A stretch of 64,000 nt of DNA, from contig NZ_QPKJ02000006.1 in NCBI RefSeq assembly GCF_003344625.1, forward strand, positions 703,892-767,891, given 5' to 3'. This DNA comes from Solirubrobacter deserti (GTDB lineage Bacteria > Actinomycetota > Thermoleophilia > Solirubrobacterales > Solirubrobacteraceae). A program made the position numbers and the translations under genes. How positions within the stretch are numbered: the first letter of the stretch is position 1; each line of letters opens with the position of its first letter. Positions 41,512-63,264 of this stretch are shown piece by piece. A model generated the notes under the pieces. That model was not told the origin of the DNA. It searched no databases and saw nothing but the letters and a program-made list of their open reading frames with translations.

Positions 41512-41555
41512 GTTACGCGGCCGTGAACTCGCTGTTATCAGGTTGTGAAGGCGGC
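41512..41555. promoter_or_regulatory. Pho box before the orphan DNA-binding gene
   Basis: Four contiguous 11-bp units on the plus strand: GTTACGCGGCC, GTGAACTCGCT, GTTATCAGGTT, GTGAAGGCGGC. They overlap the 3' end of the HD-hydrolase gene and end about 14 bp before the orphan regulator's first possible start. Alternating GTTA/GTGA units resemble the pstS box. Confidence 0.72.
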
Positions 41556-42130
41556 AGCACGTCGAGCGCCCACAACTCGAACTCGAGCTGATCCACGAGC
41601 GCGAGGTCCTGCGTGCTCGCGCGCAGCATCTCCAGGCTGGCGCGGTAGTGCTCCAGTTTCCGGCCCAGCAGCTCGCTCGGGTCGCGGATGGCCTTCCCGC
41701 GCAGCTCGCGCACCTTGGCGACCTTGTCGGCGGCGTAGATCGCGCACGCGTCGCGACCGGCGGCGGCCACCTGGTCGCGCAGCGCGCTCTTGCGCGCCGC
41801 GTAGGCCTGGATGCTCGGGTTCTCGGTGACGGCGGCCACCAGCCGCGCCACCCGTGAGCCGAACCGCCGGTGCACGTCGTCGAGCGTGACGCTGGTGTTC
41901 TCGACGATGTCGTGCAGCACGCCCGCGGTCACCACGTCGTCGTCGAAGTCGCGCCCGTTGAGCAGCGACGCCACCTCCAGCGGGTGCAGGACGAACGGCG
42001 CCTGGTCCACCTCCCGGCGCTGATCGGCATGCATGATCAGCGCCCACTCGACGGCGCGGCGGACGGGAGGACGGGTTTCGGCGAACGGCGGCAGGCGTGT
42101 TGTCAGCACCCTGTCCAAAGTATCGTTCAC
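41513..42130 (-). CDS. HD-domain protein of the RelA/SpoT hydrolase type
   Basis: A 205-residue stand-alone HD domain like MESH1/SpoT-type alarmone hydrolases. FVLHPLEVASLL holds the first metal His, GVLHDIVENT the HD pair, and YAADKVAKVREL the distal Asp. Two residues differ from the usual pattern: the ED pair after HD is EN here, and the Asn of the DRLHN motif is Lys. Substrate could therefore be (p)ppGpp or another nucleotide. GTG 42128-42130 starts it. It lies directly upstream of the orphan PhoB-type gene, suggesting a link between phosphate stress and alarmone levels. Confidence 0.8.
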   Translation of the reverse strand: MNDTLDRVLTTRLPPFAETRPPVRRAVEWALIMHADQRREVDQAPFVLHPLEVASLLNGRDFDDDVVTAGVLHDIVENTSVTLDDVHRRFGSRVARLVAAVTENPSIQAYAARKSALRDQVAAAGRDACAIYAADKVAKVRELRGKAIRDPSELLGRKLEHYRASLEMLRASTQDLALVDQLEFELWALDVLPPSQPDNSEFTAA

Positions 42131-42193: not shown

Positions 42194-42955
42194 TCAGCCC
42201 TCGGTCTCGCCGGCGCTCTGCCCCTGGGCCTTCATGAAGCCGCAGCGGAACGCCTCGGGCGAGGAGATCGGCTTGCCGCCGGCGAACCCGCCCTTGTCCC
42301 CGTTGTCGTAGACCGTCACATACTGCAGCGTCTGCGGGTACGGGTTGGCGGCCAGCGGCACCGGGTCCGGCTCCCCCGCGCGCGGATCGCCGCGCGAGCC
42401 CTCGGTCACGCCCTGCGACCCCGCGGCCGAGGAACCCGCCTGCGTGGTGATCAGCGTCGAGGACATCTCCCGCCGGTCCTTGAGGCCGTCCGTCGCGTCC
42501 ACGTCCGGTGAGGAGGAGACGGGCGCGTCGTCGATCGTCGAGGACAGCTTCACGCGGTCGGCGGCGCCGATCAGCTGCGCGGCCGTCGGCAGGAAGCCGC
42601 CCGCCTCCACGCACGCCTTGGACGCGTACGCGTAGTCGTTCTTGCCGATGTCCTCGTTGGGCACCGGGTGCGGCGAGGCCTCCAGGCACCAGGTCCCGAG
42701 GTCCACCGTCTGCGGATCGCAGTTGAGCTGCAGGTCCTGCGCGCGCAGCGTGCCGAGGCGGTCGGCGCGCCGCGCGGACGCGACCTTCGGGATCGCCTTG
42801 GCCGGGAACTTGCCCTTCTTGTCCAGCTTGAGGACCGCGTTCGGCTTGGGCTTGGACACGACGTTGACGACCGCTTGGCGGGCGGCGTCGGCGACCCCCG
42901 TGAACGAGACGGTGAGGGCGAGCAGCGCGATGATCAGCGCGGCGTGTTTCTTCAT
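42194..42955 (-). CDS. Secreted protein of unknown function
   Basis: A 253-residue exported protein. Signal peptide LIIALLALTVSFTGVADA; then a Lys-rich segment (VLKLDKKGKFPAKAIPKV, SARRADRLGTL) of a kind often seen at the base of secreted or fibre-like proteins, and a C-terminal domain with paired cysteines (NCDPQTVDLGTWCLEA; KACVEAGGFLPTAAQL). It lies downstream of the 1523-residue surface protein with ATGA overlap and is the last gene of the long minus-strand cluster. Confidence 0.7.
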   Translation of the reverse strand: MKKHAALIIALLALTVSFTGVADAARQAVVNVVSKPKPNAVLKLDKKGKFPAKAIPKVASARRADRLGTLRAQDLQLNCDPQTVDLGTWCLEASPHPVPNEDIGKNDYAYASKACVEAGGFLPTAAQLIGAADRVKLSSTIDDAPVSSSPDVDATDGLKDRREMSSTLITTQAGSSAAGSQGVTEGSRGDPRAGEPDPVPLAANPYPQTLQYVTVYDNGDKGGFAGGKPISSPEAFRCGFMKAQGQSAGETEG

Positions 42956-45900
42956 GGACGGCGTCTCCGGTACGGGAGGGTCGGCGGGTGATGGACGGAG
43001 GCGGTGGCGATGCTGCGGTCCCGGCGCTTGAGGCCGAGGCGCAGCGTCGCGCCCGCGAAGGCGGCGAGGATCACGAGGCCGTAGAGGTAGACGCCGACCG
43101 GCCCGTGCTGCTCCGGGAAGTACGCGACCGCCGCCGACGAGGACTCGGGCGCGGCCTCTTCCTCACGCTTCTCCTCGTAGACGCGGATGACCGCGCCGCC
43201 GGGCGGGATCGGGCGCGCGAACGCGCTCGCCGGCGGCGGCGGGGCGGCCGGGGTGCCGCTCTTGGGCTCGGTGCGGCGCGCGGGCGGCGTCGGCTCGGGT
43301 GTGACCACCGCGGTCGGGAACGGCGTCGGCTGGGGACGCGGGCGTTCGCGCTCGCGTTCGCGCTCGGGCTCGGACTGCGGCAGCGGCGGCGCCGGAACCG
43401 GAGGCGGGGCCGAGTTGGGAGCGGGCGCCGGAGCGGGCGCCGGGGGCGCGGCGGCGGCGTCCGGCGGCGGCGGCTGCGTGAAGCGCTCCGGGTTGAGCGG
43501 ACGCGTGCCGCACGGCCGCTGGACCTGGCCGGCGAGGACGGTGACGACCGTGCTGTAGGAGAGCCCGCCGGCCTTGACCGTGACGGTCGTCTTGCCCGCA
43601 TTGAACGGGCAGAACAGGCCGGAGCGATTGTCGGTGATGACCTTGTCGTCGGCGCCGAGCAGCGGCTTGCGCAGGTTCGTCGACGCGGGGTCCCGGGCCA
43701 CGAAGTCGCCGATGTCGGGATCGCTGGAGGTGAACTCGTACTCGGGCACGATCCGGGTCGCGCACGTGGCGCCCGCGCACGGCTGGGGAGGGAACGCCGT
43801 GTACGGGTCCGAGCCCGGAGGCTGCGGGTCGCCGCCGCCCGCGACGGCGCCCCAGCGGTCGCCCGCGGCCGGGCGCCGGCCGAGGCCCTCGAACAGCGAC
43901 GGGCGCGAGCGGCGCACCAGCGTGCCGTCGACGGCCTGCAACGTCAGCTCGGACACGATCGGCAGCAGCCGCGCGGTCACGGGCGCGCGGTTGGTGGCCG
44001 GGTCGCGCTTGCTGGTGTCGACCTCGGCGAGCAGGAGACCGGCGTCGCCGAACACGGCGTCCGGGCCGTTGGTGGTGTTGGCCAGAGGCGAGCGGTAGCT
44101 GAGCGTGCCCGTCCCGAACGCGGGGATCGTCTGGGTCGCGCCGCTCGGGATCGGGTACACGCGCGTCTCCTCCGGGCGTTCGAAGAAGTACGCGGACGCG
44201 CCGCCGTCCACGAGCAGCTTGGCGATCTCGTCGCCGTCGCCGGCGACGTTGAGCGCGGGCGCGAAGCGCGAGTTGAGGTCGCGGCTGCCCATGACGATCG
44301 CTGGGATGCCCTGCGCCTTGGCCTGCGCGAGCATCGCGGTCAGCCACGGCTTCTGGGGCTCGAGCGGGTTCTGGTGCGGGTCCGAGGCCTCCAGCGAGCC
44401 GCGCGAATTGTCGATCACGATCACCCTCACGGTCCCGCCGCGCCCGGCCGAGTCGAACGCGTAATGCGTACGCGCGCCGGGAGCTGCGACCGCTGCGCTC
44501 CCGACCGGGGCGACGCCCGCCGCGGGCAGGCCGCCGCCGAACGGCGCGGGCGCGCCCGAGAACGCTGAGGTGAACGCCGCCACCGCACTCGGCGTGGCCG
44601 TCGCCGTCGGGGTGGGGGAAGCGGTCGCCGCCCCCTCCGCCGTGTCGGCGGCGGAGGGAGCGGCGTAGGCCGGTGCGCCTGGGAGCAGCAGATCCGCGAA
44701 GCGCGTGGCTTCGCGACTGTCGAGTGGCTGCTCGTCTGGCAGACGCCCGCCCGTGTAGAGGAGCATGCGCGGCCCGCCCGGCTGGGCCGCGAGCTCACCG
44801 ACAAGGTTCTTGGCCGCGCGCAGCGTCACGTCCGGGCCGAGCGCGTTGTCGCGCAGGTCTGCGCACTTGGACGCGCATTCGGCGTGGCCGGCGACCGCAA
44901 AGCGCGCGACGGCGGCCTCCAGGTTCGTACCGGTGCGCGTGACCGACGACGGTGGCGGCGGCTGCGCGCCGGTCGCGTAGCGCAGGACCGCGGCCGTCTG
45001 CACGCGCGTGCGGTCCGCGCGGCCCTGGGTGGAGCGGTTGCCGTTGCCGCGGCCGGCGGCGTCGGACTCGCCGCTCCAACCGCCGAGCGCCCAGCCCTCC
45101 CCGTTGCCGTCCACGAGCAGCGCCGCGATCGGGTCCGACTTGACCGGGCGGTCGGCGGTCGTGCCCGCGAACGCGGTGCGCTGCTCGTCGCGCCAGCCCG
45201 TATCGGTTTCGCGCAGCAGGTAGCCGTCGGCGGGCAGCGGGAACGGCGGGATCAGCGGCGGCGGCGAGTCCGGCCCGACCTCGGGGATCAGGTCCGGGAC
45301 GGGATACGGCAGCGCGGGCTGCACGGCCGCGAGCGCGCGTACCGAGCCGCCCGAGCGGAACGCGGCCAGCGCGACCGGCGTCACGCCGAGCAGCGGCTGC
45401 GAGGAGAAGCGCCACGGCGTGCCCGCAGGCCCGTCGCGTTCGATCACGAAGTCCGGGCCGCCCGCGACCGCGCTGCCGTCCGGCAGCCCGGCGACGACGA
45501 CGATCTGGCGGTTGGCGGCCGGCAGCGTCGCGAACAGCGCGTGCACGCCCTCGTCCGCGTGCCACGCGCCGCCCTCGTTGACGAGCAGGTCCGGGCCGGC
45601 GGCGACGAGCGCCTGGCTGCCGGCGAACGCGACGCTCGTCAGGTGGCGGCCGGCGAAGCCCTCCGGCAGCGGCTCCTGCGTCCACGTCTTGTCGTAGCGC
45701 AGGAGCACGCCCTCCTTGCCGACGGCGTAGCCGCGCAGCGGGTCGCCGGCCTGGAAGGCGACCCCCATGAGGTTGCCCTCGAAGCCGACCGGCGCGGCGG
45801 GGTCGCGCTCCCACAGCCCGGTCTCCGCCCGCCACAGCCACATCGTGCCGAGGTCGCCGACGGCGTGCGCGCGCGCCGGCTCGGGCCACGCGACACCGCG

Positions 45901-47523: not shown

Positions 47524-47525
47524 CC

Positions 47526-49232
47526 TCAGCCTCCCGTGGTGGTGACGGTGTCGTCGGTGGTCGGGGTCGTCGTCACCGTGTCGTCGGACGGCGGCGCGAG
47601 CTGGGACTCGTCGAGCGTCAGCTCCTTGGTGCGAAAGCGCAGGGCCGTCGGCCACTGCTTGCGCGAGAGCTGCAGCTTGAGCGTGTGCTTGCCCTTGTTG
47701 AGCGTGCGGTTCTTCGTCTTGGCGACGGTCTTGCCCTTGCGCCGCGCGATCAGCTGCACGCGCGCCTTGCGCGAGACGGTGAACGTGAGCGACAGGACGA
47801 GCTTCTTAGACACCTTCGGCTTGCGGACGTTGCGGATCAGCGCCGCCAGCGGCTCGGGCTCGGCCTGCTCGGTCGGCTCGGGCTCGATCGCCACCGGCGG
47901 CGGGGCGAAGCGCTGGGAGTCGTCGGCCGGCGGCGCGTCGGGCACGAACTGCTCGGCGGCCTCGTTCGGGCGCGAGGTGATCGGGCCCGCGAACGCGGGG
48001 TCGGTGTCCTTGGCCGGGCGCGTGCCGTCCGTGTAGTGGAACAGCCAGCCGGCGTTGGTGACCATCCAGCCGTCCGTCGGCGACGTGAACGCGATCCGCG
48101 CGGCCGCCCCACGGCCGGAGCCGGACGCGGGCAGCGACTCGACCGTCGTGAGGCCCGTCCGCGCGTCGATGCGCGCGAGCTGGGCCTTGACGTTCGTGCG
48201 TCCCCGCTCGGCGAACGGCACGAGCGCCGCCCACGCCTCGCTGGTGCCGGGCACCGCCGCGACGTCCTCGAAGCGATCGGCGGGGCCGAACGTCGGACCG
48301 GTCAGCGCGAGCTCGCGCGTCGGCCCGCCGACGCCCACGGCCACGAGCGGCGGTCGCTGGACGACGCCGTCGACGCCGCGCGCGGCTACGGCCGGGCCCG
48401 ACGCAGCGCCGCCGCCGACCGCCCACGTGACGCCGCTGTCGCTGTCCAGGGCGAGCAGCTCGGTGCCGCCGTCGGCCTCTTGGGAGGGCAGGAACGGGTC
48501 ATCGCTGAAGACGGTGCCCTCGATGCGCTGGAGCAGGTACGCGCGCGACTCCAGCGGCGGCGGGTCCGGCGCGTCGGGCGAGCCGCGACGCGGGCCGACG
48601 GCGGAGGACTCCAGGTAGCCCGTGGCGGTCGCCTCGATGTCGGTCACCGCGCGGCCGCTGCCGGCGTTGTAGACCGTGCGCAGGCTCGCGCCGTCCCAGT
48701 GCAGGTGGAAGGCGCCGACGCGCGTGCCCGTGGGGTCACGCGAGCCGATGCCGGCGAACCAGCAGTCGTTGACCGCGCGGCAGGCGGCCGCGTGCATCTG
48801 GCGGTACGGGTCGGCGGCCGTGTCCGCCGTCGAGTAGGAGCCGACGACCTGGCCGTCCTTGAAGCGGCACAGCGCCGTGCCCGAGCCCTGGCGCGGCCGG
48901 CTCGGCTCCGAGACGGTCCAGAACTCGTTCGCGGCCGCCCAGGCGATCCGCATCGTGTCCCCCGGGCCGCCGCAGACGGTCGACAGGGTGTGCCACGACT
49001 CGCCGTCGTAGGCGAGGATGCCGCGCGGCACGACGCTGTTGCCCTCCACGCCGAGCAGGCCGCGGTTCGGTGCCCAGAACGTCAGCGAGCCGGGAGCGCC
49101 GAGCGCCACGTTGAACGGCGCGCCGGCGGGCGGCGCCGGCTGCTCCAGGCGCCAGACAGGGGCCGACTGCGCGCTCGCCGGGGCGACCGCGCAGCACCAC
49201 ACCCACAGAACCAAGACAGCGAGTCGTCTCAC
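47526..49232 (-). CDS. Secreted propeller-like protein with Ig-like C-terminus
   Basis: A 568-residue exported protein from GTG 49230-49232, which overlaps the ftsH stop. Signal peptide LAVLVLWVWCCAVAPASA; then repeated Trp/Gly-rich blades (FWAPNRGLLGVEGNS; EFWTVSEPSRP; DCWFAGIGSRDP; TDGWMVTNAGWLFHYTDG) like YCF48/sialidase-type propellers, and a C-terminal beta domain rich in Lys (FTVSRKARVQLIARRKGKTV). The end is a Thr/Asp tail (TVTTTPTTDDTVTTTGG). No catalytic residues recognised. It is coupled between ftsH and the giant protein gene. Confidence 0.78.
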   Translation of the reverse strand: MRRLAVLVLWVWCCAVAPASAQSAPVWRLEQPAPPAGAPFNVALGAPGSLTFWAPNRGLLGVEGNSVVPRGILAYDGESWHTLSTVCGGPGDTMRIAWAAANEFWTVSEPSRPRQGSGTALCRFKDGQVVGSYSTADTAADPYRQMHAAACRAVNDCWFAGIGSRDPTGTRVGAFHLHWDGASLRTVYNAGSGRAVTDIEATATGYLESSAVGPRRGSPDAPDPPPLESRAYLLQRIEGTVFSDDPFLPSQEADGGTELLALDSDSGVTWAVGGGAASGPAVAARGVDGVVQRPPLVAVGVGGPTRELALTGPTFGPADRFEDVAAVPGTSEAWAALVPFAERGRTNVKAQLARIDARTGLTTVESLPASGSGRGAAARIAFTSPTDGWMVTNAGWLFHYTDGTRPAKDTDPAFAGPITSRPNEAAEQFVPDAPPADDSQRFAPPPVAIEPEPTEQAEPEPLAALIRNVRKPKVSKKLVLSLTFTVSRKARVQLIARRKGKTVAKTKNRTLNKGKHTLKLQLSRKQWPTALRFRTKELTLDESQLAPPSDDTVTTTPTTDDTVTTTGG

Positions 49233-51214
49233 TCGACCGGCGGCTGTACCGAACGCCGGCCGTTGACCGGCAGGTCCGACTCCAGGGTGACGGGCGTGAG
49301 CAGGGCTTCCAGCGCGAGGCCGGACACCGTCTCGTGATCGAGCAGCACCTGCGTGATCTCGCGCACCGCGCTCCAGTTGGCCTGCAGGATCACGGTCGCG
49401 CGCTCGAGCGCCTCGGCCACGATCCGCTCGACCTCGTTGTCGATCAGGTCGAGCGTCGCCGGGCCGACGGAACCGAGCTCCTGCAGCGATGCGCCGAGGA
49501 AGACCTCGCCGCCCTGCTCGCCGATCGTGACCATGCCGAGCTTCGCCGACATGCCGAACGAGGTGACCATCGAGCGCGCGAGGTTGGTCGCGGCGTGCAG
49601 GTCGTCGTTGACGGCCGTCGAGACGACGCCGAACTGGACCTTCTCGCCCGCGGCGCCGGCGAGGATCGCGCACAGCTGCCGCTGCAGATCGTGCTCCTGC
49701 ATGACCGTCACGTCCTTGTCCACCAGCTGGGACGCGGACGTCCCGAGCGTGCGCCCGCGCGCGACGATCGAGATCTTCTGCGCGCCCGAGCCGGTCGACT
49801 GGCCGACCGCGCGCGCGACGACCGCGTGCGAGGACTCGTGGATCGCGATCACCTGGCGTTCGCGCACGCTGAGCACGTGCGACTTCTTCGCCGGGCCGGC
49901 GACGACGCGGTCGATCGACTCCTCCAGCGTGGCCTGGTCGATCGTCTCGCGGCCCTCGCGGACCGTCAGCAGCGCCGCCTCGTTGACGACGTTCGCGAGC
50001 TCGGCGCCCGAGAACCCCGGGCACAGCTTCGCGACCTCCATCAGGTCGGCCGACGGGTCGATCGGCTTCTTGCGCGCGTGCAGCTGCAAGATCTCGTAGC
50101 GGCCGTGCACGTCCGGCGTGTCCACGACGACCTGGCGGTCGAAGCGGCCCGGGCGCAGCAGCGCCGGGTCCAGGATGTCCGGGCGGTTGGTGGCCGCCAT
50201 CACGACCAGACCGGAGTCGCCCCCGAAGCCGTCCATCTCGACCAGCAGCTGGTTGAGCGTCTGCTCGCGCTCGTCGTTGCCCTGGCCGATGCCGGCGCCG
50301 CGCTTGCGGCCGGCGGCGTCGACCTCGTCGATGAAGATGATCGCCGGGGCCATCTTGCGGGCCTTGGCGAACAGGTCGCGCACGCGGGCGGCTCCGACTC
50401 CGACGAGCGACTCGACGAACTCCGCGCCGGAGACCGAGAAGAAGGCCGCGTCGGCCTCGCCCGCGGTGGCCTTGGCGAGCAGGGTCTTGCCCGTGCCCGG
50501 AGGGCCGACGAGCAGCACTCCCTTGGGCGGCGCCGCGCCGAGCGCGAGGTACTTGCTGGGGTCTTCGAGGTAGTCGCGGATCTCGCGCAGCTCGACGACC
50601 GCCTCACCCGCGCCCGCGACGTTCGCGAACGTGATCGAGTTGGCGGACTTGGCACCGCGCTTGCGGCCCTTGCCCTTGAAGTTCGAGAAGGAGGCGATGC
50701 CCCCGGCGCCGCCGTCGGCACCGATCCGCGTGAAGAGCGCGAACAGGCACACCAGCAGCAGGATCGGGACCAGGAACTGGACGAGGATGGCCTTCGCGGG
50801 CTTCCCCGCCTGCTGGTCCACGGTGACGACCGCGCCGTTCTCGCGCAGCGACGTCATGAGCGCGGTCGTCTGCGCGTCCGACTCGGGATACGCGGCCCAG
50901 AACTCCGCGCCGCCGGACGTGTCGGCCACGACCCGCGAGTCCTGGTCGAGCATCGTCGCCCGCACGATCGACTTCGCCTCCGAGTACTGGAGCATCGTCG
51001 AGAACGGAATCTCCCGGCCCGACGACGACGGCTGCGTGCCGCCGAGCAGCGAGAAGAACAGGACGGTCAACGCGACCGACGCAACGAGCAGGAACGCCGA
51101 GAAGCGGTCCTTGAGAAGGGGACGAACCAGCCCCCCGAGCAGTGTCCCCAGGCTCCCGACTACGCGCGAGAAAGCGCTGGGGCGGCTCGCGAGGGCTGGC
51201 TTGTCCCGACTCAT
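49229..51214 (-). CDS. ftsH: FtsH-type AAA+ membrane zinc protease
   Basis: Membrane-anchored ATP-dependent protease of 661 residues. Two N-terminal membrane helices ([39 protein letters not shown]) bracket an extracytoplasmic loop. The AAA module has [27 protein letters not shown] and [19 protein letters not shown]. The protease domain has HESSH in [12 protein letters not shown] (usual: HEAGH) and [11 protein letters not shown] for the third ligand. It sits in the middle of a secreted-protein operon behind a PstS-like gene, an unusual place; it may be a dedicated paralogue rather than the housekeeping copy. Confidence 0.93.
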
Positions 51215-51218
51215 TTCC

Positions 51219-53042: not shown

Positions 53043-53162
53043 GAGCTGGGACGACTCCTTAGAAGCAGACGAGACGGGGTTTCGCGCCGGAGCGACCGGG
53101 CGCACCTGCCCTTCCGGGGCAAGGACGCTCGGCAGCCTCCCGGAGTTCAGAGCCGGTGTGGA

Positions 53163-53217
53163 GGGGCGTTCACCAACTTGGAACAGACCCTTGACAGGTC
53201 CGCAACATGACATTCAC
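53163..53217 (-). promoter_or_regulatory. Pho box of the PstS-like/ftsH operon: five 11-bp repeats
   Basis: On the minus strand five contiguous units all begin GT: GTGAATGTCAT, GTTGCGGACCT, GTCAAGGGTCT, GTTCCAAGTTG, GTGAACGCCCC. Equivalent plus-strand units each end in AC. The block overlaps the stop codon of the upstream propeller gene and ends about 120 bp before the PstS-like start. The 171-bp space contains no other clear signal. Confidence 0.7.
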
Positions 53218-55166: not shown

Positions 55167-57085
55167 GGCGACACCCGCTTGCTCGTGGTCACGCGGTTGC
55201 CGGCCTTGTCGGTCGCGCGCACGGTGACCGTGAACGGGCCGCCGCCGGCGTAGCGGTGCGAAGCCGTGCGGCGGCCGCTGGAGCGCTTGCCGTCGCCCCA
55301 GCGAATGCTGACGGTCCCGTTGTCGACGCCGCTCGTGCTCGAGCGGGCGCCGTCGCTCACCGTGACCTGGACGAGCCGGTTGCGGAAGCGCTGGACGCGC
55401 ACGCGCGGCTTGCGGCGGTCCAGCTTGAGCTCGGCCGGGCGGCTCGTGGTCTCCTGCCCGCCGGCGTCCTCGGCGATCACCTGGACGACCTGCACGCCGT
55501 CGTCGAGGTTGCGTGAGCGCAGCGCGAGCTTGGTCCGGGTGAGGTTCTCGGCCACCGTGTCGTCGTCGACGGTCACGGCGTACTTGACGCCGCCGATCGC
55601 GTGCGCGGGGACCTCCCACTGGAGCTCGGGCACGGTGCGCACCCAGTCCACGGGCGTCTGGACGGCGAACGGGTCGGGCGGCGCGTCGACGACGACCGCG
55701 GCGATCTGCGGGCCGCTCTCGGGACCCTGCGCCCAGCCGACGATCGCGTCGCCGAGGCCGGAGCCCGCGAGGGCGAAGCCGGACACGATCCCGCCCACCG
55801 GGGCGGTCAGCGCCTGAGCGGTGGGGACGCCGTCCGAGCGGCGCTCGCTGACGCCGATGCCGCCGGCGCCGCCGCGGCGGACCTGCCAGGCGGCGACGGA
55901 CGCGCCGGAGGCGGCGAGATCGACGACGGGCGTGCCGGGGATGCTGGTGCGGCCGTCGTCGAGCCGCTCGGGCGGGTTCACGGTGCGGTCGTCGGCGCCC
56001 ACGAGCACGCTGCGCTGGCCGAGTCCGAACACGGTCGCCGTGTCCCCCACCCGGTCCACGGCCACGGACGGCGGCCCCACCGCGGCGGGGGCGGCCGCGC
56101 CGGCGCCGTCGACGATCCGCGGCGCGCCGAATCTGGCGGCGTCGGGCGAGGAGACCTCGGGGATCGTCGCGAGCATGATCCGCGGGCCGGGCAGCGGGCC
56201 GCCGGGCGCGGCGAGCTGGCGGTAGGCGATCGCGCCCTGGCCGAAGCCGGCGGTGTCGAGCGAGAACTGGTCCACGCCCGCGCGCAGCGGCTGCTCCTCC
56301 CACGTCGCGGGCGACACCAGCGTGGCAATGCCGACCTGGCCCGAACCGAAGATGCGGCGCGCCCAGACGCGATCGACGAACTGGTCGTCCGGCTCCTGCC
56401 AGGCGAGCAGGCCGTTGCCCTGCACGTCGATGGTCAGGCGCGGCGTCGCGCCCGCGGCGGGCAGCCGCAGCGGCGCGGCGGTGTTGCGGTTCAGCGGGAA
56501 GCCGAAGCCCGACCACAGCGCGCCGTCGTAGCGCGCGCCCCGCAGCTCGCCGCGCGCGTAGCCCGGCGGGTCGGCGGCGCCGGGCACCTGCATCGCGAGG
56601 TAGCTGATGAACGCGTTGCCGCTCGGCGCCATCGCGATCGACGGCCAGGTGCCCGTCGACTCGCCGACGTTGAGGTCGATCGGTACGGGCGGCTGGAAGC
56701 GGCGCGCGCCCGGGTCCAGCGCGGCGGAGTACAGGCGGTCGGTCGACGGGCCGTACTCCTGCACCCAGGCGACGACGAGCCGGCCCCCGTTGCCGGCGCC
56801 GATGGCCGGCCACGACGAGTCGAAGCGCTGGCCGTTGTCGACGCGCTGCGGTGCGCGCCAGCCGCCCCGGCTGTCGAACTGCGCGGCGAAGATGTGGATG
56901 CGGCCGTCGACGCGCTTGCGGTAGACGACCCCGCCCGTCCCGTCCGGCGCCATCGCGACCCCCCCGAAGTCGACGATCTCGGCCGACGGACCGTCGATGG
57001 GGGTCAGTGAGGAGATGCTCGCGCGCGCCGTGCCGGGAAGGCACGCCGCGCCCAGCAGCAAGACGAACGACACAAGCAGGCGCAC
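55163..57085 (-). CDS. Secreted repeat protein with PKD/Ig-like C-terminus
   Basis: A 640-residue exported protein starting at GTG 57083-57085; signal peptide LLVSFVLLLGAACLPGTARA. The body has recurring beta segments (GGRLVVAWVQEYGP; GNAFISYLAMQVPG; GNGLLAWQEPDDQ; GASVAAWQVRRGG; GDAIVGWAQGPESG), consistent with a propeller. The last 150 residues contain Ig/PKD-like strands, including GGGPFTVTVRATDKAGNRVT. It is the first gene of the minus-strand cluster and diverges from pstS2 across a 94-bp region with a palindrome. Confidence 0.8.
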   Translation of the reverse strand: MRLLVSFVLLLGAACLPGTARASISSLTPIDGPSAEIVDFGGVAMAPDGTGGVVYRKRVDGRIHIFAAQFDSRGGWRAPQRVDNGQRFDSSWPAIGAGNGGRLVVAWVQEYGPSTDRLYSAALDPGARRFQPPVPIDLNVGESTGTWPSIAMAPSGNAFISYLAMQVPGAADPPGYARGELRGARYDGALWSGFGFPLNRNTAAPLRLPAAGATPRLTIDVQGNGLLAWQEPDDQFVDRVWARRIFGSGQVGIATLVSPATWEEQPLRAGVDQFSLDTAGFGQGAIAYRQLAAPGGPLPGPRIMLATIPEVSSPDAARFGAPRIVDGAGAAAPAAVGPPSVAVDRVGDTATVFGLGQRSVLVGADDRTVNPPERLDDGRTSIPGTPVVDLAASGASVAAWQVRRGGAGGIGVSERRSDGVPTAQALTAPVGGIVSGFALAGSGLGDAIVGWAQGPESGPQIAAVVVDAPPDPFAVQTPVDWVRTVPELQWEVPAHAIGGVKYAVTVDDDTVAENLTRTKLALRSRNLDDGVQVVQVIAEDAGGQETTSRPAELKLDRRKPRVRVQRFRNRLVQVTVSDGARSSTSGVDNGTVSIRWGDGKRSSGRRTASHRYAGGGPFTVTVRATDKAGNRVTTSKRVSP

Positions 57086-57121
57086 CAGGCCGAACCTATG
57101 GCGAAGACATCACGCAATGGA

Positions 57122-57149
57122 CCGTCTTTCACGAGATGAGCACATCTCG
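57122..57149. promoter_or_regulatory. Divergent control region: palindrome and two Pho-like units
   Basis: CGAGATG-AGCA-CATCTCG (57132-57149) is a perfect 7-bp inverted repeat centred between the divergent propeller and pstS2 genes. Overlapping it on the minus strand are GTGCTCATCTC and GTGAAAGACGG (57143-57122), two units with the 11-bp spacing of the other Pho boxes. A TAGGTT placed 7 bases before the propeller GTG suggests a leaderless promoter on that side. Confidence 0.42.
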
Positions 57150-57179
57150 GCCACAATCCGCCGAGAGAGTGGCGGCGCG

Positions 57180-57986
57180 ATGAAGCGCTCCCGTCTCCTG
57201 CTGCTCGCCGCCGGCACTCTCGCCGCGGCCACGTTCCCGACCGCTGCCCACGCCCAGTCGAAGATCCTCATGAGCGGATCGACCTCGGTCTACCCGCTCA
57301 CGGCTGATCTCATCAAGGCGTACAAGAAGAACAACCCCAACACGAGGTTCACCGTCTCCCAGGGCGGCTCGGACGTCGGCATCGGGGACGTCGCGCGCAA
57401 GCGCGTGAACATCGGTATGTCCTCGCGTGACCAGCAGTCCGGTGACCCGGGCGGGCTGAACTTCTACAAGATCGCGCGCGACGGCGTGTGCATCGCGACG
57501 CACCCCGACAACAACCTCGCGAACCTGTCCCAGCAGAACGTGCAGGACATCTTCTCGGGCAAGGTCCGCCGCTGGCAGGACGTGCCCGGTGCGAAGGTCA
57601 CGGGCCCGATCAACCTGAACGTCCGTACGCAGGCCTCCGGTACCCAGGACGCGTTCCGCAACATCTTCATGGGCCCGTCGCTGAACGTGACGCCGAGCGC
57701 CTCCCAGAAGGCGTCCAACGGTCTCGTCCAGACCGCGATCCGCAGCGACCGCAACGCGATCGGCTACCTCGACGTCAACTTCACCCAGGGCACCTACCCC
57801 GTGCCGTACAAGGGCGTCGCGTGCAACCTGCGCAACGCCAAGTCGGGCCAGTACCCCGGCGTCCGTAACTTCTGGTTCGTCACGGTCGGCCCCGCCAAGG
57901 GCGAGGTCAAGAAGTTCATCGACTTCGCGCGCTCTTCCTCGACGCAGAGCAGCGTCGTCGCGAAGAAGTACGTGCCGTACCGGTAG
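57180..57986 (+). CDS. Second PstS-type phosphate-binding protein
   Basis: A 268-residue exported binding protein of the short PstS type. Signal peptide LLLLAAGTLAAATFPTAAHA without a lipobox, so it is released or wall-held. Binding marks: MSGSTSVYPLTADLIKAY, VSQGGSDVGIGDVA, NIGMSSRDQQSGD and VRTQASGTQDAFRNIF. The usual GSGTG loop reads GSDVG here, so affinity or ligand may differ. It begins the plus-strand operon and its stop overlaps the pstC2 GTG by one base. Confidence 0.9.
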   Translation: MKRSRLLLLAAGTLAAATFPTAAHAQSKILMSGSTSVYPLTADLIKAYKKNNPNTRFTVSQGGSDVGIGDVARKRVNIGMSSRDQQSGDPGGLNFYKIARDGVCIATHPDNNLANLSQQNVQDIFSGKVRRWQDVPGAKVTGPINLNVRTQASGTQDAFRNIFMGPSLNVTPSASQKASNGLVQTAIRSDRNAIGYLDVNFTQGTYPVPYKGVACNLRNAKSGQYPGVRNFWFVTVGPAKGEVKKFIDFARSSSTQSSVVAKKYVPYR

Positions 57987-58942
57987 TGAGCGGCTGGTGG
58001 TCTGACCGGCGCGTCGGACCGGCGCTCGGCAGCGCGGGCGTGCTCGTGCTGGCGATCATCGCGGGGATGACGGTCTACGTCTTGCGAGAGGCGTGGCCGT
58101 CGTTCTCCGCCAACGGCCTGGCGTGGTTCGGCACCGGCGGCGACGCCAACGTGCAGCTGGAGAACATCTTCCGCTCGGAGCCGCCGTTCGAGTACATGCT
58201 GCGGGCCTGGCCGCTGCTCTACGGGACGCTGCTGTCCTCGGGTGGCGCGGTGATCTTCGGGCTCGTCCTGTCCACGCTGACGGCCGTGTTCATCGTGGAG
58301 TTCGCGCCGCCGTCGGTGGTCCGCATCCTCGAGCCCGTCGTGCGGCTGCTCGCCGGTGTGCCGAGCGTGATCTACGGGCTGATCGGCGTGCTCGTGCTCG
58401 TGCCGTTCCTCAATGACCACCTGATCTCCACCGAGCGCAAGGAGTCGGTCTTCTACGTGATCCAGCTGACGGGTCAGAGCCTGCTCGTGGCCACGGCGCT
58501 GCTGACGATCATGATCGTGCCGATCATGATCGCGATCGCGGTCGACGCCCTGCGCTCGGTGCCGTCTTCGTGGACCGAGGGCGCGCTCGCCCTCGGTGCC
58601 AACCGCATGCGCGTGATGTGGACGATCGCGCTGCGCGCCGCGCGTCCCGCGCTGGTCGCCGGCGCCGTGCTCGCGCTGGCGCGCGCGCTGGGCGAGGCGA
58701 TCATGCTCGCGATGGTCTCGGGCGGCGTCATCTTCGCGCCCAACCCGCTCGACGGAAGCACGTTCTTCTTCGAGCCGATCCAGCCGCTCGCGGCCGCGAT
58801 CGTGCAGGGCGCCGAGGGCATCACGGTCAAGCCGTACGGGCAGACGCTGTTCGCCTTCGCCGCCGTGATCATGGTCTCCAGCGTCGGCCTCTCGATCACC
58901 GGCTGGGCCGTGCGCCGCCGGCTGCGGAGGTTCGCGGCGTGA
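57986..58942 (+). CDS. Second PstC-type permease
   Basis: A 318-residue permease with six membrane segments. PstC-like marks: VYVLREAWPSFSANGLAWF, AWPLLYGTLLSSGGAVIFGL, LLAGVPSVIYGLIGVLV and the coupling loop EGALALGANRMRVMWTIAL. An extracytoplasmic insertion with FRSEPPFEYML is present. It starts at GTG 57986 directly on the pstS2 stop. A 70-bp spacer with a small hairpin (ACCGGC-GAA-GCCGGT, 58980-58994) precedes pstA2. Confidence 0.92.
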   Translation: MSGWWSDRRVGPALGSAGVLVLAIIAGMTVYVLREAWPSFSANGLAWFGTGGDANVQLENIFRSEPPFEYMLRAWPLLYGTLLSSGGAVIFGLVLSTLTAVFIVEFAPPSVVRILEPVVRLLAGVPSVIYGLIGVLVLVPFLNDHLISTERKESVFYVIQLTGQSLLVATALLTIMIVPIMIAIAVDALRSVPSSWTEGALALGANRMRVMWTIALRAARPALVAGAVLALARALGEAIMLAMVSGGVIFAPNPLDGSTFFFEPIQPLAAAIVQGAEGITVKPYGQTLFAFAAVIMVSSVGLSITGWAVRRRLRRFAA

Positions 58943-59012
58943 GATCCGCGAAGCGATCTCTCTGCCGAACTGGCCCCGCACCGGCGAAGCCGGTCGCGGA
59001 CAGGTGGCGCCC

Positions 59013-59996
59013 GTGAGCGCGCTGGCGACACCCCCGCAGGAGCGCCCGCCGCGCCTGCGCACCGACCCGTCCGGGTCCTGGCGCGCGTGGCCGCTGCGCG
59101 ACCGCGTCCTGCTCGGCCTGTGCTGGGCGGCCGGTCTGGCGCTGATCGCGATCGCCGCGCTGATCGTCCTCTACATGCTCGTCAAGGGCGTGCAGTACCT
59201 GCGGCCCGAGCTGCTGTGGGACCGGCCCGAGGCGTCGATCGACCAGTCGCGGTCCGGCGGCTTCCTGGACCCGATCCTGGGCACGGTCCTGATCGTCGTC
59301 GGCGCGCTCGTGATCGCGGCGCCGCTCGGCGTCGCGACCGCCGTGTGGCTGACCGAGTACGGCAAGCCCAAGTGGCTCGCGCGCATGGTGGAGTCCGGCA
59401 TCGAGGTGATCGCGGGTACCCCGTCGATCGTGCTCGCGCTGTTCGGCCTCGCGTTCTTCGCGCAGGGCGGGCTCGGGTTCCTGTCGGCGACGGGCGAGGG
59501 CGGCGCCGTGTTCGGGCGCTCGCTGCTGATCTGCTGCGCCGTGCTCTCGCTGGAGGCGCTACCGCTGATCGTGGGCGCCACGCGTGAGGGCCTGCTGTCC
59601 ACGCCGCGCCACGTGCGCGAGGCGTCGTACGCGCTGGGCAAGACGCGCGCGGCGACGATCCACCGCGTGCTGCTGCCGGTCGCGCGCCCGAACATCGCGA
59701 CGGGCTGCGCGCTCGGGATGGGCCGTGTCGCCGGCGACACGGCGGTCGTGCTGCTGCTCGGCGGCGGCACGCTGCAGCTGACGACCAACGGCTCGATCCC
59801 GGGCCTGAACTATCTGCAGGGCACGGGCTCGACGCTCACGACGTACGTGTACGCGAACTCGCCCTCGGGCGAGGGCGGCGCGCCCGAGAAGGCGTACGCG
59901 GCAGCGTTCCTGCTGCTGGCGCTGGTGTTGGTGTTGAACTGGGCGGTCGACCGGATCGCGCGCGGTAGCAACGAGAGGCTGGGATGGACCCGCTGA
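59013..59996 (+). CDS. Second PstA-type permease
   Basis: A 327-residue permease. PstA-like marks: YMLVKGVQYLRPELLWDRP, GGFLDPILGTVLIVVGA, VIAGTPSIVLALFGLAFF and the coupling loop [23 protein letters not shown] 59013 is preferred over GTG 59004 because AGGTGG sits 6 bases before it. It overlaps pstB2 by 13 bp. It lacks the long N-terminal extension of the first PstA. Confidence 0.92.
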   Translation: MSALATPPQERPPRLRTDPSGSWRAWPLRDRVLLGLCWAAGLALIAIAALIVLYMLVKGVQYLRPELLWDRPEASIDQSRSGGFLDPILGTVLIVVGALVIAAPLGVATAVWLTEYGKPKWLARMVESGIEVIAGTPSIVLALFGLAFFAQGGLGFLSATGEGGAVFGRSLLICCAVLSLEALPLIVGATREGLLSTPRHVREASYALGKTRAATIHRVLLPVARPNIATGCALGMGRVAGDTAVVLLLGGGTLQLTTNGSIPGLNYLQGTGSTLTTYVYANSPSGEGGAPEKAYAAAFLLLALVLVLNWAVDRIARGSNERLGWTR

Positions 59997-60865
59997 TGCC
60001 CCCGCCGCCGATCCGGCGGATCGTCGTCGACGCGCCGCACGTGGTCGTGCCGGCGCCGGAGCCCGAGACCAACGGCGCCGTCCGGATGCGCCCGCGCGTC
60101 ACGACCGACGTGGTCGAGCGCATGCGCGTCGAGGAGCTCACAATCACCTACGGCCCGAAGGTCGCCGTCAACGGCGTCAACCTGCCCGTCCACCAGGGCG
60201 AGGTGCTGGCGCTGATCGGCCCGTCGGGCTGCGGCAAGACGACCTTGCTGCGGTCGCTGAACCGGCTCGTGGAGCTCACGCCGGGCGCCGCGCGCGGCGG
60301 CAAGATCGTGCTCGACGGCGACGACGTGGACGCGATCGAGGTCACCAGCCTGCGCCGGCGGATCTCGATGGTCTTCCAGCAGCCGAACCCGTTCCCGATG
60401 TCGATCTTCGACAACGTCGCCTACGCACTGCGCGAGCAAGGCTCCAAGCGCGTCAAGCGGGCGGAGCTGATGGCGCCGGTGCGCAACGCGCTCGAACGCG
60501 CGGGCCTGTGGGACGAGGTCGGCGACGACCTGGACCGGCCCGCGCTGCGCATGTCGGGCGGCCAGCAGCAGCGGCTGTGCATCGCGCGGGCGCTCGCCGC
60601 CGACCCCGAGGTGTTGTTGCTCGACGAACCGTGCTCGGCGCTCGACCCGCGCTCGACGGCCACGATCGAGGAGCTGATCCTGCAGCTGCGCGAGTCGCTC
60701 GCGGTCGTGATCGTCACGCACAACCTGCAGCAGGCGTACCGGATCGCCGACCGGGTCGCGTTCATGTACCTGGGCGAGCTCGTCGAGTACGGGCTGGCCG
60801 AGGACGTCTTCGAGCGCCCGCAGCACACACGCACCGCCGAGTACGTGGGTGGCGCGTTCGGATGA
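59984..60865 (+). CDS. Second PstB-type ATPase
   Basis: A 293-residue ABC ATPase of the phosphate importer family. The first 45 residues are a Pro/Val-rich extension. Then Walker A IGPSGCGKTTLLRSLNRL, Q-loop SMVFQQPNPFP, signature [15 protein letters not shown], Walker B VLLLDEPCSALDP and H-loop IVTHNLQQAYRIADRV. It is coupled to a lipoprotein gene by ATGA. Confidence 0.94.
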   Translation: MDPLMPPPPIRRIVVDAPHVVVPAPEPETNGAVRMRPRVTTDVVERMRVEELTITYGPKVAVNGVNLPVHQGEVLALIGPSGCGKTTLLRSLNRLVELTPGAARGGKIVLDGDDVDAIEVTSLRRRISMVFQQPNPFPMSIFDNVAYALREQGSKRVKRAELMAPVRNALERAGLWDEVGDDLDRPALRMSGGQQQRLCIARALAADPEVLLLDEPCSALDPRSTATIEELILQLRESLAVVIVTHNLQQAYRIADRVAFMYLGELVEYGLAEDVFERPQHTRTAEYVGGAFG

Positions 60866-61578
60866 GGTGGCTCGTGGCGTGCCTGGCCCTGGTCGCGTTC
60901 GCGGGTTGCGAGTCGACCCAGGCCAAGAGCGCTCGGCTCGAGCGCCAGGCGCAGGCCGCCAAGACGGAGAAGGGGGTCGTCGTCACCCGCGACGCGCCCG
61001 AGATCGAGGTCGGCGAGGCCGCCGTGCTGCAGGACGCCAACGGCGCCGCCACGGCCGTCGAGCTGCGCAACAAGTCCGGCGCGCCGCTGGTCGGGCTGCC
61101 GATCAGCGTCTCGGTGCTCGACGCCGCCAAGAAGCCGGTCTACACCAACGACACGCCCGGCCTGGACGCGTCGCTGGTCAGCGTCCCCGCCCTGGCCGGC
61201 GGTGAGCGGCTGGTCTGGGTCAACGACCAGGTCACGCTCGCCGGCGAGGGCAAGGAGGTCACCGCGCGCGTCGGCACCGGCGGCAAGCCCGGCCCGCCCG
61301 AGCTGCCCGAGATGGAGATCACCGGGTTGAAGGTGACCACCGACGTCGGCGGCAGCGCCACCGGCGTCGGCACCGTCCACAACCGCTCGGACGTCCTCCA
61401 GCGCCGCCTGGTCGTGTTCGTCGCCGCCCGCAAGGCCGACCGCGTCGTCGCCGCCGGCCGCGCCATCGTCGAGCAGCTCCCTGCGGGCAAGTCCGCGAAC
61501 TTCACCGCCTTCCTCATCGGCGACGCGGCGGGAGCCGAGCTCTCCGCCGCGGCGCCCCCGACCATCGTCACGCCGTAA
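60862..61578 (+). CDS. Lipoprotein of the second pst operon
   Basis: A 238-residue lipoprotein (LVAFAGCEST lipobox). A helical charged stretch (AKSARLERQAQAAKTEK) is followed by two beta-sandwich-like halves: VELRNKSGAPLVGLPISVSV and GVGTVHNRSDVLQRRLVVFV, the pattern of FxLYD/DUF-type Ig-like domains. It has no close family name I can give. Overlap with pstB2 suggests it works with the second transporter at the membrane surface. Confidence 0.75.
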   Translation: MRWLVACLALVAFAGCESTQAKSARLERQAQAAKTEKGVVVTRDAPEIEVGEAAVLQDANGAATAVELRNKSGAPLVGLPISVSVLDAAKKPVYTNDTPGLDASLVSVPALAGGERLVWVNDQVTLAGEGKEVTARVGTGGKPGPPELPEMEITGLKVTTDVGGSATGVGTVHNRSDVLQRRLVVFVAARKADRVVAAGRAIVEQLPAGKSANFTAFLIGDAAGAELSAAAPPTIVTP

Positions 61579-61588
61579 GGACCCCGCG

Positions 61589-62716
61589 ATGCAACACACC
61601 GCCCCACCCACTCCGCACGACGCGCCGACGGCCGAGTTCGCACCGGTCGGCGCCGCTTCGCCGCCGCACGGGGCGGCGGCGCCCCACGCCGTCCCCGCCA
61701 CCGGGCAGTACGCGGCGGCGACCCCGGTCACCGTGCAGTACGGCGCGGCGGCCTTCGGCTCGGTCCCGGCGCACGCTCCCGTCGCGTCCGCCCCGGCCGA
61801 CGAGGCCGGATTCTTCGCGCCGCGCCTCGGCCCCGACGGCGAGCCGTGCGCGAGCTGCGGCGCGCCGCTCGCGGCTGACCAGCGCTACTGCCTGAACTGC
61901 GGTGAGCGCCGCGCCGCCACGCGCGTGCCGTTCCCGGCCGCCGTCGCGCCGCAGCCGACCGCTACCACGGTCACGCACTCCACGCTGCCGGTGCGCCGGT
62001 CGCTCCCGCCGATGCCGATCTGGACGGGTCTGGCCGGCGTGGCGGCGGTCAGCCTCGGCATCCTCGCGGGCGTCGTGCTCATGAACGCGCGCGACGACGA
62101 CCCGGTCACGGTGGCCGCCACGCCGACGCCGACCGCGTCCGTCGCCGCGGCGCCGCCCCCGGCGCAGTCGACGCCCGCGCCGGAAGCCGCGCCCGCGACC
62201 TTCACGCCGGACTGGCCCGCAGGCACCGACGGCTGGACGGTCCAGCTGCGGACGCTGCCCAAGGACGGCACGACGCCGGACGCCGTCGCCGCGGCCAAGA
62301 ACGAGGCGTCGACGCAGGGCGCCGCCGACGTCGGCGCGCTCGACTCGGACTCCTATCCGTCGCTGGACCCGGGCCAGTACGTCATCTACTCGACGGTCTC
62401 CACCAGCCAGGCGGACGCCGAGTCGATCCTCGACGGCATCAAGGCCAACTTCCCGGACGCGAAGGTCGTCGAGGTCTCCCAGACTCCGGGCGGCGGCACC
62501 GGCGACGACAACACCACCGAGGACAGCGGCGACACCGGTGACTCCCCTCCCCCGACGAGCGACGAGGCGCTCAAGGAGAAGGAGCAGACGCAGACGCCGG
62601 AGGAGGCGCAGAAGAAGCTGCGCGACGCGCCGGACGAGCAGGCGACCGAGGGCGGCGAGCTGCCCGAGGCCGACGGCGGCGAGCCGGGCGGCGGCACGGA
62701 GGCGACGGAGTTCTGA
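61589..62716 (+). CDS. Zinc-ribbon membrane protein with SPOR-like domain
   Basis: A 375-residue protein. The cytoplasmic N-terminus is a Pro/Ala linker and a zinc ribbon (CASCGAPLAADQRYCLNCGERR, two CxxC pairs near 85-107). One membrane helix (GLAGVAAVSLGILAGVVLM, about 148-166) leads to an external Thr/Pro linker and a domain with GWTVQLRTLPKDG and SYPSLDPGQYVIYS, which resembles a SPOR peptidoglycan-binding fold (SPOR proteins bind denuded glycan strands). The tail is acidic (DDNTTEDSGDTGD). It starts 10 bp after the lipoprotein gene and overlaps the next start. Confidence 0.72.
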   Translation: MQHTAPPTPHDAPTAEFAPVGAASPPHGAAAPHAVPATGQYAAATPVTVQYGAAAFGSVPAHAPVASAPADEAGFFAPRLGPDGEPCASCGAPLAADQRYCLNCGERRAATRVPFPAAVAPQPTATTVTHSTLPVRRSLPPMPIWTGLAGVAAVSLGILAGVVLMNARDDDPVTVAATPTPTASVAAAPPPAQSTPAPEAAPATFTPDWPAGTDGWTVQLRTLPKDGTTPDAVAAAKNEASTQGAADVGALDSDSYPSLDPGQYVIYSTVSTSQADAESILDGIKANFPDAKVVEVSQTPGGGTGDDNTTEDSGDTGDSPPPTSDEALKEKEQTQTPEEAQKKLRDAPDEQATEGGELPEADGGEPGGGTEATEF

Positions 62717-63075
62717 TGAAGCTGCGCGGCCGCACCTACGTCCCCGACCCTCAGCCGCTGCCGCCCGGCGGCGGCCGCTCGGTGAGCCCCGCCGAGCTCA
62801 ACGAGCGCCGGCGCCGACTCGAGCGCGAGTTCGCCGAGCTGCAGTTCGACCTCGGCGGGCTCGCCTACGAGATGGCGATCCGCGACCACTTTCGCGTCGA
62901 CCTGCTCGTGCGCCACGCGGCGCGGCTGCAGGCGCTCGACGCCGAGCTCGGCGCCGTCGAGCGGCTCGCCCGCATGGACGAGGGCGGCGCCGCGGGCACG
63001 TGCCCGAACTGCGACGCGCTGTACCCGCGCGGCGCGGCGTTCTGCTCGCAGTGCGCGCATCCGCTGATGCGATGA
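62716..63075 (+). CDS. Small coiled-coil zinc-ribbon protein
   Basis: A 119-residue soluble protein. A helical, charged middle (NERRRRLEREFAELQFDLGG and HAARLQALDAELGAVERLAR) fits a coiled coil, and the C-terminus is a zinc ribbon with CPNCDALYPRGAAFCSQC. It shares the double-zinc-ribbon theme with the upstream membrane protein and overlaps its stop (TGATG). Role unknown; an adapter between the two ribbons is possible. Confidence 0.75.
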   Translation: MKLRGRTYVPDPQPLPPGGGRSVSPAELNERRRRLEREFAELQFDLGGLAYEMAIRDHFRVDLLVRHAARLQALDAELGAVERLARMDEGGAAGTCPNCDALYPRGAAFCSQCAHPLMR

Positions 63076-63180: not shown

Positions 63181-63264
63181 GTGAACCTCGCGTGTGGGAA
63201 GTGGCCGTGACCAGCTTGTGAATTGTTCATCGGACCTTCGCCGTGAAGAGTTTGTGAACGCCCT
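63181..63264 (+). promoter_or_regulatory. Three pairs of 11-bp Pho-type repeats before DUF47 gene
   Basis: Pairs in register: GTGAACCTCGC-GTGTGGGAAGT (63181-63202), GTGACCAGCTT-GTGAATTGTTC (63207-63228), GTGAAGAGTTT-GTGAACGCCCT (63243-63264). This is the densest cluster in the window. A TACGGT 6 bases before the GTG start could be the -10 of a leaderless transcript activated from here. Confidence 0.75.

Follow-up and report, generated by a model that had tools for sequence, protein, structure and literature searches.

A Pst2-linked gene cluster of Solirubrobacter deserti with an FtsH protease from a clade tied chiefly to a giant surface protein

The DNA analyzed here, referred to as the window, is a 64,000-nucleotide stretch of Solirubrobacter deserti (Thermoleophilia, Solirubrobacterales; contig NZ_QPKJ02000006.1, positions 703,892 to 767,891; genome size 7.55 Mb). 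It carries a divergent gene cluster that an initial annotation, made from the sequence alone, had proposed as a candidate new system combining a second phosphate transporter (Pst2), a PstS-like protein, the membrane protease FtsH, and large surface proteins. All of the genes named there are present with a strong coding signal (Table 1). On the minus strand, leftward from 57085, lie M1, M2, M3, M4 (FtsH), M5, M6, and M7; the plus strand holds pstS2-C2-A2-B2, a gene for an FxLYD-like lipoprotein, two zinc-ribbon genes, and then, at the contig end, a DUF47-like gene recognized by inspection. The divergent layout held up, and the view of the minus side as one operon may need revision: M3 probably starts at 53042, at an ATG behind AAGGAG, leaving a 171-nt gap behind M2, so that the minus side may be split into two transcription units. 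The 4-bp stop-start overlaps said to prevail are found at three of the six minus-strand junctions (M1/M2; M4/M5, with a GTG at 49232; M6/M7), the M3/M4 and M5/M6 junctions having gaps of 4 and 2 nt besides the long M2/M3 interval. Among the protein assignments, the "Ig-like lipoprotein" is FxLYD-like instead, and the membrane protein described as zinc-ribbon/SPOR-like keeps its zinc ribbon (below cut-off), whereas SPOR has no Pfam or NCBIfam match. The propeller assignment is confirmed for M2 through PD40; M5 has no Pfam match and is called propeller-like by inspection. The statement that M3 has no permease of its own is correct in that none is encoded on the minus side, pst2 being divergent.

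Table 1. Coordinates of the cluster features in the window, and of three comparison FtsH genes from other genomes.
Feature	Coordinates	Strand	Evidence
M7, small, secreted or signal-anchored, 253 aa (amino acids), weakly C-type-lectin-like	42194..42955	-	
M6, single-pass surface protein, 1523 aa	42952..47523	-	
M6 residues 862-1345, metallophosphoesterase fold lacking conserved histidines, with an immunoglobulin (Ig)-like domain	43489..44940	-	structure model
M5, secreted, conserved Cys pairs, basic C-terminal part; propeller-like by inspection	47526..49232	-	
M4, FtsH paralogue, 661 aa, M6-linked clade	49229..51214	-	TIGR01241 648.8 bits, cut-off 600; trees; motifs
M3, secreted PstS-like phosphate-binding-type protein, basic C-terminal domain	51219..53042	-	PBP_like_2 (PF12849) 40.6 bits, cut-off 27
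M2, secreted PD40 (WD40-like) propeller, 650 aa, basic C-terminal domain	53214..55166	-	PD40 37.3 bits, cut-off 20.9
M1, secreted, 640 aa, C-terminal PKD-like domain, opens the minus side	55163..57085	-	PKD_4 E 7.5e-6, 26.3 bits (cut-off 27, just missed)
Divergent promoter region between M1 and pstS2	57086..57179		
pstS2	57180..57986	+	TIGR02136 161.3 bits, below cut-off 206.6
pstC2 permease	57986..58942	+	
pstA2 permease	59004..59996	+	
pstB2 ATPase	59984..60865	+	
FxLYD-like lipoprotein, marker for this Pst2 type	60862..61578	+	20.3 bits, cut-off 23
Zinc-ribbon membrane protein	61589..62716	+	Zn_Ribbon_1 E 4e-4, below cut-off
Zinc-ribbon protein, 119 aa	62716..63075	+	Zn_Ribbon_1 24 bits, cut-off 25
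Specialised 869-889-aa FtsHs, genomes without M6	L239:9347-12016, L240:7556-10165, L241:9877-12537		

The FtsH of the cluster, M4, has the Walker A, Walker B, and HEXXH motifs (HEXXH in 28/28 linked rows) and scores above the curated FtsH (M41) family cut-off. The window genome encodes seven M41 proteases; two other genomes (G071 and G081) encode two each, one of them being the cluster copy. In a tree of 39 FtsHs, 20 cluster copies fall on a single branch (89/99; 92% of bootstrap trees), and the closest FtsHs outside this branch (G000:C9, in the window genome, and G157:C2) each stand directly before an M6 paralogue (1536 and 1531 aa). A search with the M6 domain yielded five further FtsH-M6 pairs (L170, L171, L174, L175, L176), and L177 has an FtsH within a few kb of a weakly scoring M6-like frame (70 bits). 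In the enlarged tree, the 28 linked FtsHs form one group against 16 others (100/100, 100% of 200 bootstraps). In five of seven pairs the FtsH and M6 genes share a 4-bp overlap, and the remaining two have gaps of 23 and 26 nt. A pst2-FxLYD-zinc-ribbon operon is found about 6 kb from the pair at L174 and about 3 kb from it at L176. The smallest unit seen is FtsH plus M6, and Pst2 is linked to it even without the other surface genes. The FtsH trees omit repeat loci (L048, L049, L055, L059, L061, L063, L069, L083, L113, L114, L117, L118) and fragments with fewer than 350 aligned residues (L038, L056, L079); the most divergent FtsHs (L086, L121) are in the 39-FtsH tree and are omitted from the enlarged and control trees.

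As a control, M41 proteases were collected from eight genomes of the family without an M6 match. Of the 30 places, 25 were usable (L231, L234, and L235 scored below 300 bits; L236 and L238 were in pieces), and none of these 25 FtsHs falls inside the M6-linked group (Shimodaira-Hasegawa-like approximate likelihood ratio test 100, quick tree). The sampled members of the clade stand with M6-type proteins or cluster families, both in the large cluster and as two-gene operons. The cluster FtsH belongs to a distinct FtsH clade tied chiefly to M6. In a genome of the same genus as the window (G157, L123), M3, M5, and an FxLYD-type Pst2 match are missing, yet the FtsH-M6 pair is kept.

M6, as read from its sequence, is a type-I surface protein with a propeller: a signal peptide is followed by a Ycf48-like propeller, a pseudo-metallophosphoesterase domain, an Ig-like domain, a Pro-rich stretch, a strongly conserved extracellular juxtamembrane motif (EEKREEEAAPESSxA), a transmembrane helix, and a basic cytoplasmic tail, which is at least 20 aa long in 110 of the 117 homologues that have the helix. 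A Pfam scan at E 0.1 matched only PSII_BNR (PF14870, 30.9 bits, cut-off 27). Residues 862-1345 were modelled at a mean predicted local distance difference test (pLDDT) of 85.4, and a structure search (Foldseek) of this confident model assigned a metallophosphoesterase (calcineurin-like) fold. The claim rests on the model because profile comparison with four phosphoesterases of the same genome found no match. Calcineurin-like metallophosphoesterases carry a His/Asp/Asn set of dimetal ligands. These conserved ligands were not found in the M6 domain, positions being judged by motif order rather than superposition: no His column is conserved in more than 17 of 24 rows, and only six columns retain Asp/Asn at 90% or more. 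In addition, the six Pfam families listed for 24 M6 members at E ≤1 include no phosphoesterase model, HMMER filters dropping most hits above about 0.1. The M6 family has at least 878 database matches, and among the matches listed those with a source name are called hypothetical; the homologue lists give the best 120, about 7,990 candidates having been scored.

M3 of the window has all of the PstS motifs GASF, GSG, xD, and RxxSGT when aligned with PstS1, motifs that we take to contact phosphate. Across 30 aligned rows, the two serines are kept in 25 and 28, the aspartate in 26, and the S, G, and T of the last motif in 26, 30, and 27; the exceptions include two weak matches (L044, L045) and a fragment (L033). 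With these motifs kept, M3 likely binds phosphate. By sequence, its closest solved structures belong to PstS-type phosphate-binding proteins (E 8e-5 to 2e-3), and it scores below the PstS equivalog model TIGR00975 (45.4 bits, cut-off 205). The basic C-terminal domains of M2 and M3 are homologous (hhalign 98%); a C-terminal domain common to all secreted proteins was rejected (M2/M5 26.6%, M3/M5 4.9%, M1 with the others at most 1.2%). Homologues of M1 are present in the cluster loci of relatives. M7 gives a weak hint of likeness to C-type lectins (UL45, best E 0.14, 3/12 members), and its structure model is poor (pLDDT 48).

Across 299 genomes of the class, M3 was detected in 19 and M5 in 18, both being found in 17, M3 alone in two, and M5 alone in one. 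The two M3-only genomes (G146, G252) have C-terminal matches close to threshold, and the M5-only genome (G272) in fact has a divergent M3 (235.6 bits). The M6-domain profile matched 22/299 genomes, covering all M5 genomes except G222, where the contig ends within M5. Co-occurrence of M3, M5, and M6 is far above chance (Fisher p ≤1e-18, kinship ignored). The distribution is patchy within genera, with g1, g3, g4, g8, g11, and g15 each including genomes with and without the cluster families. The divergent two-operon order recurs, as far as contigs reach, in 10 genomes besides the window: Solirubrobacter taibaiensis, S. phytolaccae, S. soli, and S. deserti, Paraconexibacter algicola (G212), Conexibacter sp. 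CPCC 205762, G071 (a 2.1-Mb genome), G198, G230, and the metagenome-assembled genome (MAG) of L058, labelled Chlamydiae. Within the same species, S. deserti CPCC 204708 (L049) has this locus too, with M5 100% identical. In Patulibacter and other lineages, the same families stand together in different orders, for example as FtsH-M7-M1 divergent from PstS-like-M2-M5-M6 or as FtsH-M7-M1-M2-M5-M6. That the company is kept despite shuffled order argues for function rather than recent common descent. Gene ends in the fetched loci come from a simple purpose-made gene caller.

Several further observations concern the reach of these families. In the phylum sample, one genome outside the class, G336, has M6-like frames (5/396 in all); one of them (L173:3270-7342, minus strand) adjoins a PstS-like (M3) frame, extending the M6-M3 company beyond the class, and no FtsH was found in the pieces fetched from this genome. 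Three Patulibacter loci contain extra proteins of about 1100 and 215 aa among the PstS-like genes (L035:8379-11777, L036:7925-11212, L037:1957-5235), some of the genes being preceded by PHO-like sites. Loci L054, L075, and L058 are titled Bifidobacterium breve or Chlamydiae yet carry Solirubrobacterales-type clusters, and are probably mislabelled MAGs.

The Pst2 operon is a looser companion of the cluster. Its FxLYD marker occurs in 49/299 class genomes, 17 of which have M6; in these 17, the two lie within about 14 kb in 13, far apart in one (G272), and on separate contigs of fragmented assemblies in three (G098, G190, G290).

Phosphate control was approached through PHO boxes, which in Streptomyces coelicolor are 11-nt direct repeats with the unit GTTCACC (PMC4415409, excerpt). 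The scan took its unit from that species and counted GTTCAC pairs at an 11-nt period with at least 10 of 12 positions matching. Nine divergent regions contain 12 such sites against 0.16 in Markov shuffles, all within five of the nine. The divergent regions of the window, L050, L052, and L072 have none at this threshold, and that of the window has only a weak pair at 57127 (9/12, P 0.03). Over 33 stretches, site density per kb is 3.27 before cluster genes and 3.83 before pst/DUF47 genes, against 0.275 in other intergenic DNA and 0.053 in coding DNA. This count draws on the window and 33 loci, skipping L054 (no gene calls) and omitting repeats; L029 (61% guanine plus cytosine, GC) is outside it, its two sites being counted in the divergent-region scan. 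Some "M3" upstream regions precede long, weakly M3-like proteins (L035-L037, L125), and one "FtsH" region precedes an unlinked FtsH (L175). Without regions shared with pst genes, 48 sites remain in 16,253 bases; non-Patulibacter loci alone have 14 sites in 10,202 bases (p ~9e-4 versus other intergenic DNA). In Patulibacter, arrays precede M1, M2, M3, and FtsH, about 10 kb from the FxLYD gene where one contig holds both. On these sites, Pho control appears well supported in Patulibacter and likely in Conexibacter-type genomes; it is unproven in Solirubrobacter and for most FtsH-M6 pairs. At 63207-63260 of the window, good PHO-box-like pairs (10/12, 11/12) precede the DUF47-like gene.

Other features of the window were also recorded. 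Left of the cluster, at 35-41 kb, is the first Pst operon, which by inspection includes PhoU and a PhoB-type response regulator. Between M7 and its pstS1 is a stand-alone HD_4 protein (41513-42130, minus strand; PF13328, 61.8 bits), which we take to be RelA/SpoT-hydrolase-like; this family was not seen in L052. Immediately upstream of pstS1, a 126-aa open reading frame (41118-41498, minus strand) appears by eye to be a lone winged-helix (PhoB/OmpR-type) DNA-binding domain resembling the C-terminal half of the response regulator encoded at 35273-36121. No Rfam family matched the window at gathering score. A sigma-70 scan gave zero sites and predicted terminators numbered 6 against 4.4 expected, both scans being uninformative in GC-rich DNA.

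Taken together, the findings describe an FtsH clade of its own whose partner in the genome is a pseudo-phosphoesterase of the cell surface, within a gene set that looks Pho-controlled in many relatives. The observation of the initial annotation is confirmed and its interpretation partly supported. One functional neighbourhood, with families that keep their neighbours outside close relatives, is borne out by the class genomes and the loci of relatives, as is a phosphate link, by the PHO-box-like arrays before cluster genes in relatives and the PstS motifs in M3. The "general protease in unusual company" gives way to a member of a distinct M6-tied clade. Pst2 is indeed linked, as a looser companion than the single system proposed, and dedicated quality control is kept as one option, the other being M6 as a partner or regulator of FtsH.

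We tentatively favour, at somewhat less than an even chance, the explanation that the cluster is a surface module with which Solirubrobacterales respond to phosphate starvation, built around a dedicated membrane protease, with M6 recruiting or gating FtsH. A PhoP-type regulator would turn the gene set on under low phosphate; M1, M2, M3, and M5 would be located at or in the wall, partly via their basic C-terminal parts, and M3 would capture phosphate close to the surface. The dead phosphoesterase domain of M6 would sense conditions at the surface, be it phosphate, a phosphate ester, or M3 in its loaded form, and its juxtamembrane motif and transmembrane helix would recruit or gate the FtsH hexamer, which would then remove membrane targets such as Pst2, other envelope proteins, or M6 itself. 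M6 could thus act as HflK/C does on Escherichia coli FtsH, as an unrelated partner. The steps from low phosphate through expression to surface proteins are proposed because of the motifs in relatives, and those from M6 at the surface to FtsH inside because of the gene pairing, the shared clade, the topology, and the conserved juxtamembrane motif. The findings point to a so far undescribed system that couples membrane proteolysis to the supply of phosphate.

Several observations weigh against this explanation. Three FtsHs from genomes without M6 (two in G077, one in G087) score 817-868 bits with the cluster-FtsH profile, versus 818-877 for the pair FtsHs. The tree sets them apart despite these scores; they are 869-889 aa long and adjoin a 543-573-aa secreted protein, with MinD/ParA-like ATPase genes in two of the three (by eye). 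They represent a different specialised FtsH and caution that FtsH genes with secreted-protein neighbours occur apart from M6 as well. Four loci (L042, L043, L074, L125) keep M1-M2-M5-M6-M3 without FtsH in the fetched stretch, although the genomes of the first two (G248, G260) have an FtsH-M6 pair elsewhere, and at L033 and L037 M6 is absent from the stretch of the FtsH, the contig ending first. For phosphate control, five Patulibacter (g9) loci account for 34 of the 48 unshared sites, just 17 of 31 loci contain any site, no site at the 10/12 threshold precedes the cluster in Solirubrobacter (window, L050-L052), and five of six tested FtsH-M6 pair operons lack a site and one has it, L171 having too little upstream DNA. 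Of the 49 genomes with FxLYD, 32 lack M6 and also M5. Finally, the M6-FtsH contact, the substrate, and expression are all inferred.

A different role for the protease, close to that first proposed, is quality control or turnover of the surface assembly. M6 would then be the substrate, which FtsH pulls out by the short, basic tail in the cytoplasm and degrades upon misassembly or a return of phosphate. The FtsH-M6 overlap and separate FtsH clade fit this role, as do the tail lengths among M6 homologues, and FtsH acts on its substrates by engaging disordered peptide segments (PMC12048511, excerpt). A housekeeping FtsH could do the same job, however, M1-M2-M5-M6 sets without a nearby FtsH exist, and a tail-based degron leaves the strongly conserved extracellular juxtamembrane motif unexplained; we consider turnover a serious though rather unlikely alternative. 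It is less probable that FtsH is an operon-inherited neighbour with no special tie, the surface proteins M1, M2, M3, M5, M6, and M7 forming a phosphate-scavenging layer that feeds Pst2. The phosphate motifs of M3, the PHO-like arrays, the basic C-terminal parts, and the Pst2 linkage are all consistent with such a layer, but FtsH has its own clade and keeps M6 both in shuffled orders and in bare two-gene operons.

The remaining alternatives appear improbable. The module might serve another envelope function, such as adhesion or wall remodelling, with the phosphate signals belonging solely to the neighbouring Pst operon, as the propeller or Ig surface type of several proteins and the lack of good PHO-like sites in Solirubrobacter and most tested pair operons would allow; the Patulibacter arrays, which lie before cluster genes at some distance from the FxLYD gene, make this very unlikely. 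Marginally less plausible still is an enzymatically active M6, working outside the cell as a phosphodiesterase or nuclease through a relocated, non-canonical site and freeing phosphate for M3 and Pst2, given the weak conservation of His and Asp/Asn columns and the lack of a phosphoesterase model among the Pfam families listed above. A defence system was rejected, PADLOC having returned only AAA-type matches (IetA, TRIP13) for FtsH and none for the nine other proteins scanned. A photosystem-type Ycf48 role for M6 was also rejected; M6 shares propeller repeats with this photosystem II assembly factor and lies far below the NCBIfam equivalog cut-off (28.1 vs. 326 bits), so that the resemblance is one of propellers only.

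Control of FtsH by a partner from outside has a precedent in E. coli FtsH-HflK/HflC, in which FtsH has membrane partners that bear large extracytoplasmic parts and regulate the access of membrane substrates (PMC12048511, excerpt). M6, by contrast, has no SPFH match (Pfam, E 0.1), and is a C-terminally anchored protein of about 1500 aa with a propeller, a pseudo-phosphoesterase, and an Ig-like domain, known here from sequence; its likeness to HflK/C would therefore be one of working, not of membership. The cluster resembles Pho-regulon Pst systems (pstSCAB, PhoU, Pit) in its PstS-type proteins, its full Pst2 transporter, and the PHO-box-like arrays of relatives, and differs in having, in addition, FtsH, a PstS that lacks a permease and bears a basic domain, and another five surface proteins. 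GAP50 of Plasmodium (3tgh) is likewise a metallophosphoesterase-fold membrane anchor, but from an unrelated organism and without FtsH, propeller, or Ig-like domain.

The best-known role of FtsH is that of a housekeeping protease partnered by SPFH proteins. In the clade described here, genome organization ties FtsH to a surface pseudoenzyme unrelated to those partners and, in many relatives, to control sites of the phosphate type. Our literature search found no description of FtsH in Thermoleophilia or Solirubrobacter, nor of FtsH with a metallophosphoesterase pseudoenzyme. A bolder and doubtful possibility is that FtsH and M6 represent a new class of transmembrane signalling protease, in which a dead surface phosphoesterase serves as a phosphate or phosphate-ester receptor controlling an AAA+ protease; envelope composition would then follow extracellular phosphate without a kinase, and the larger cluster would be its phosphate-acquiring surface machine. 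If the partnership is real, FtsH would be steered from outside the membrane in a second way that is unrelated to the first, and this large M6 protein family of common, little-studied soil bacteria would gain a function.

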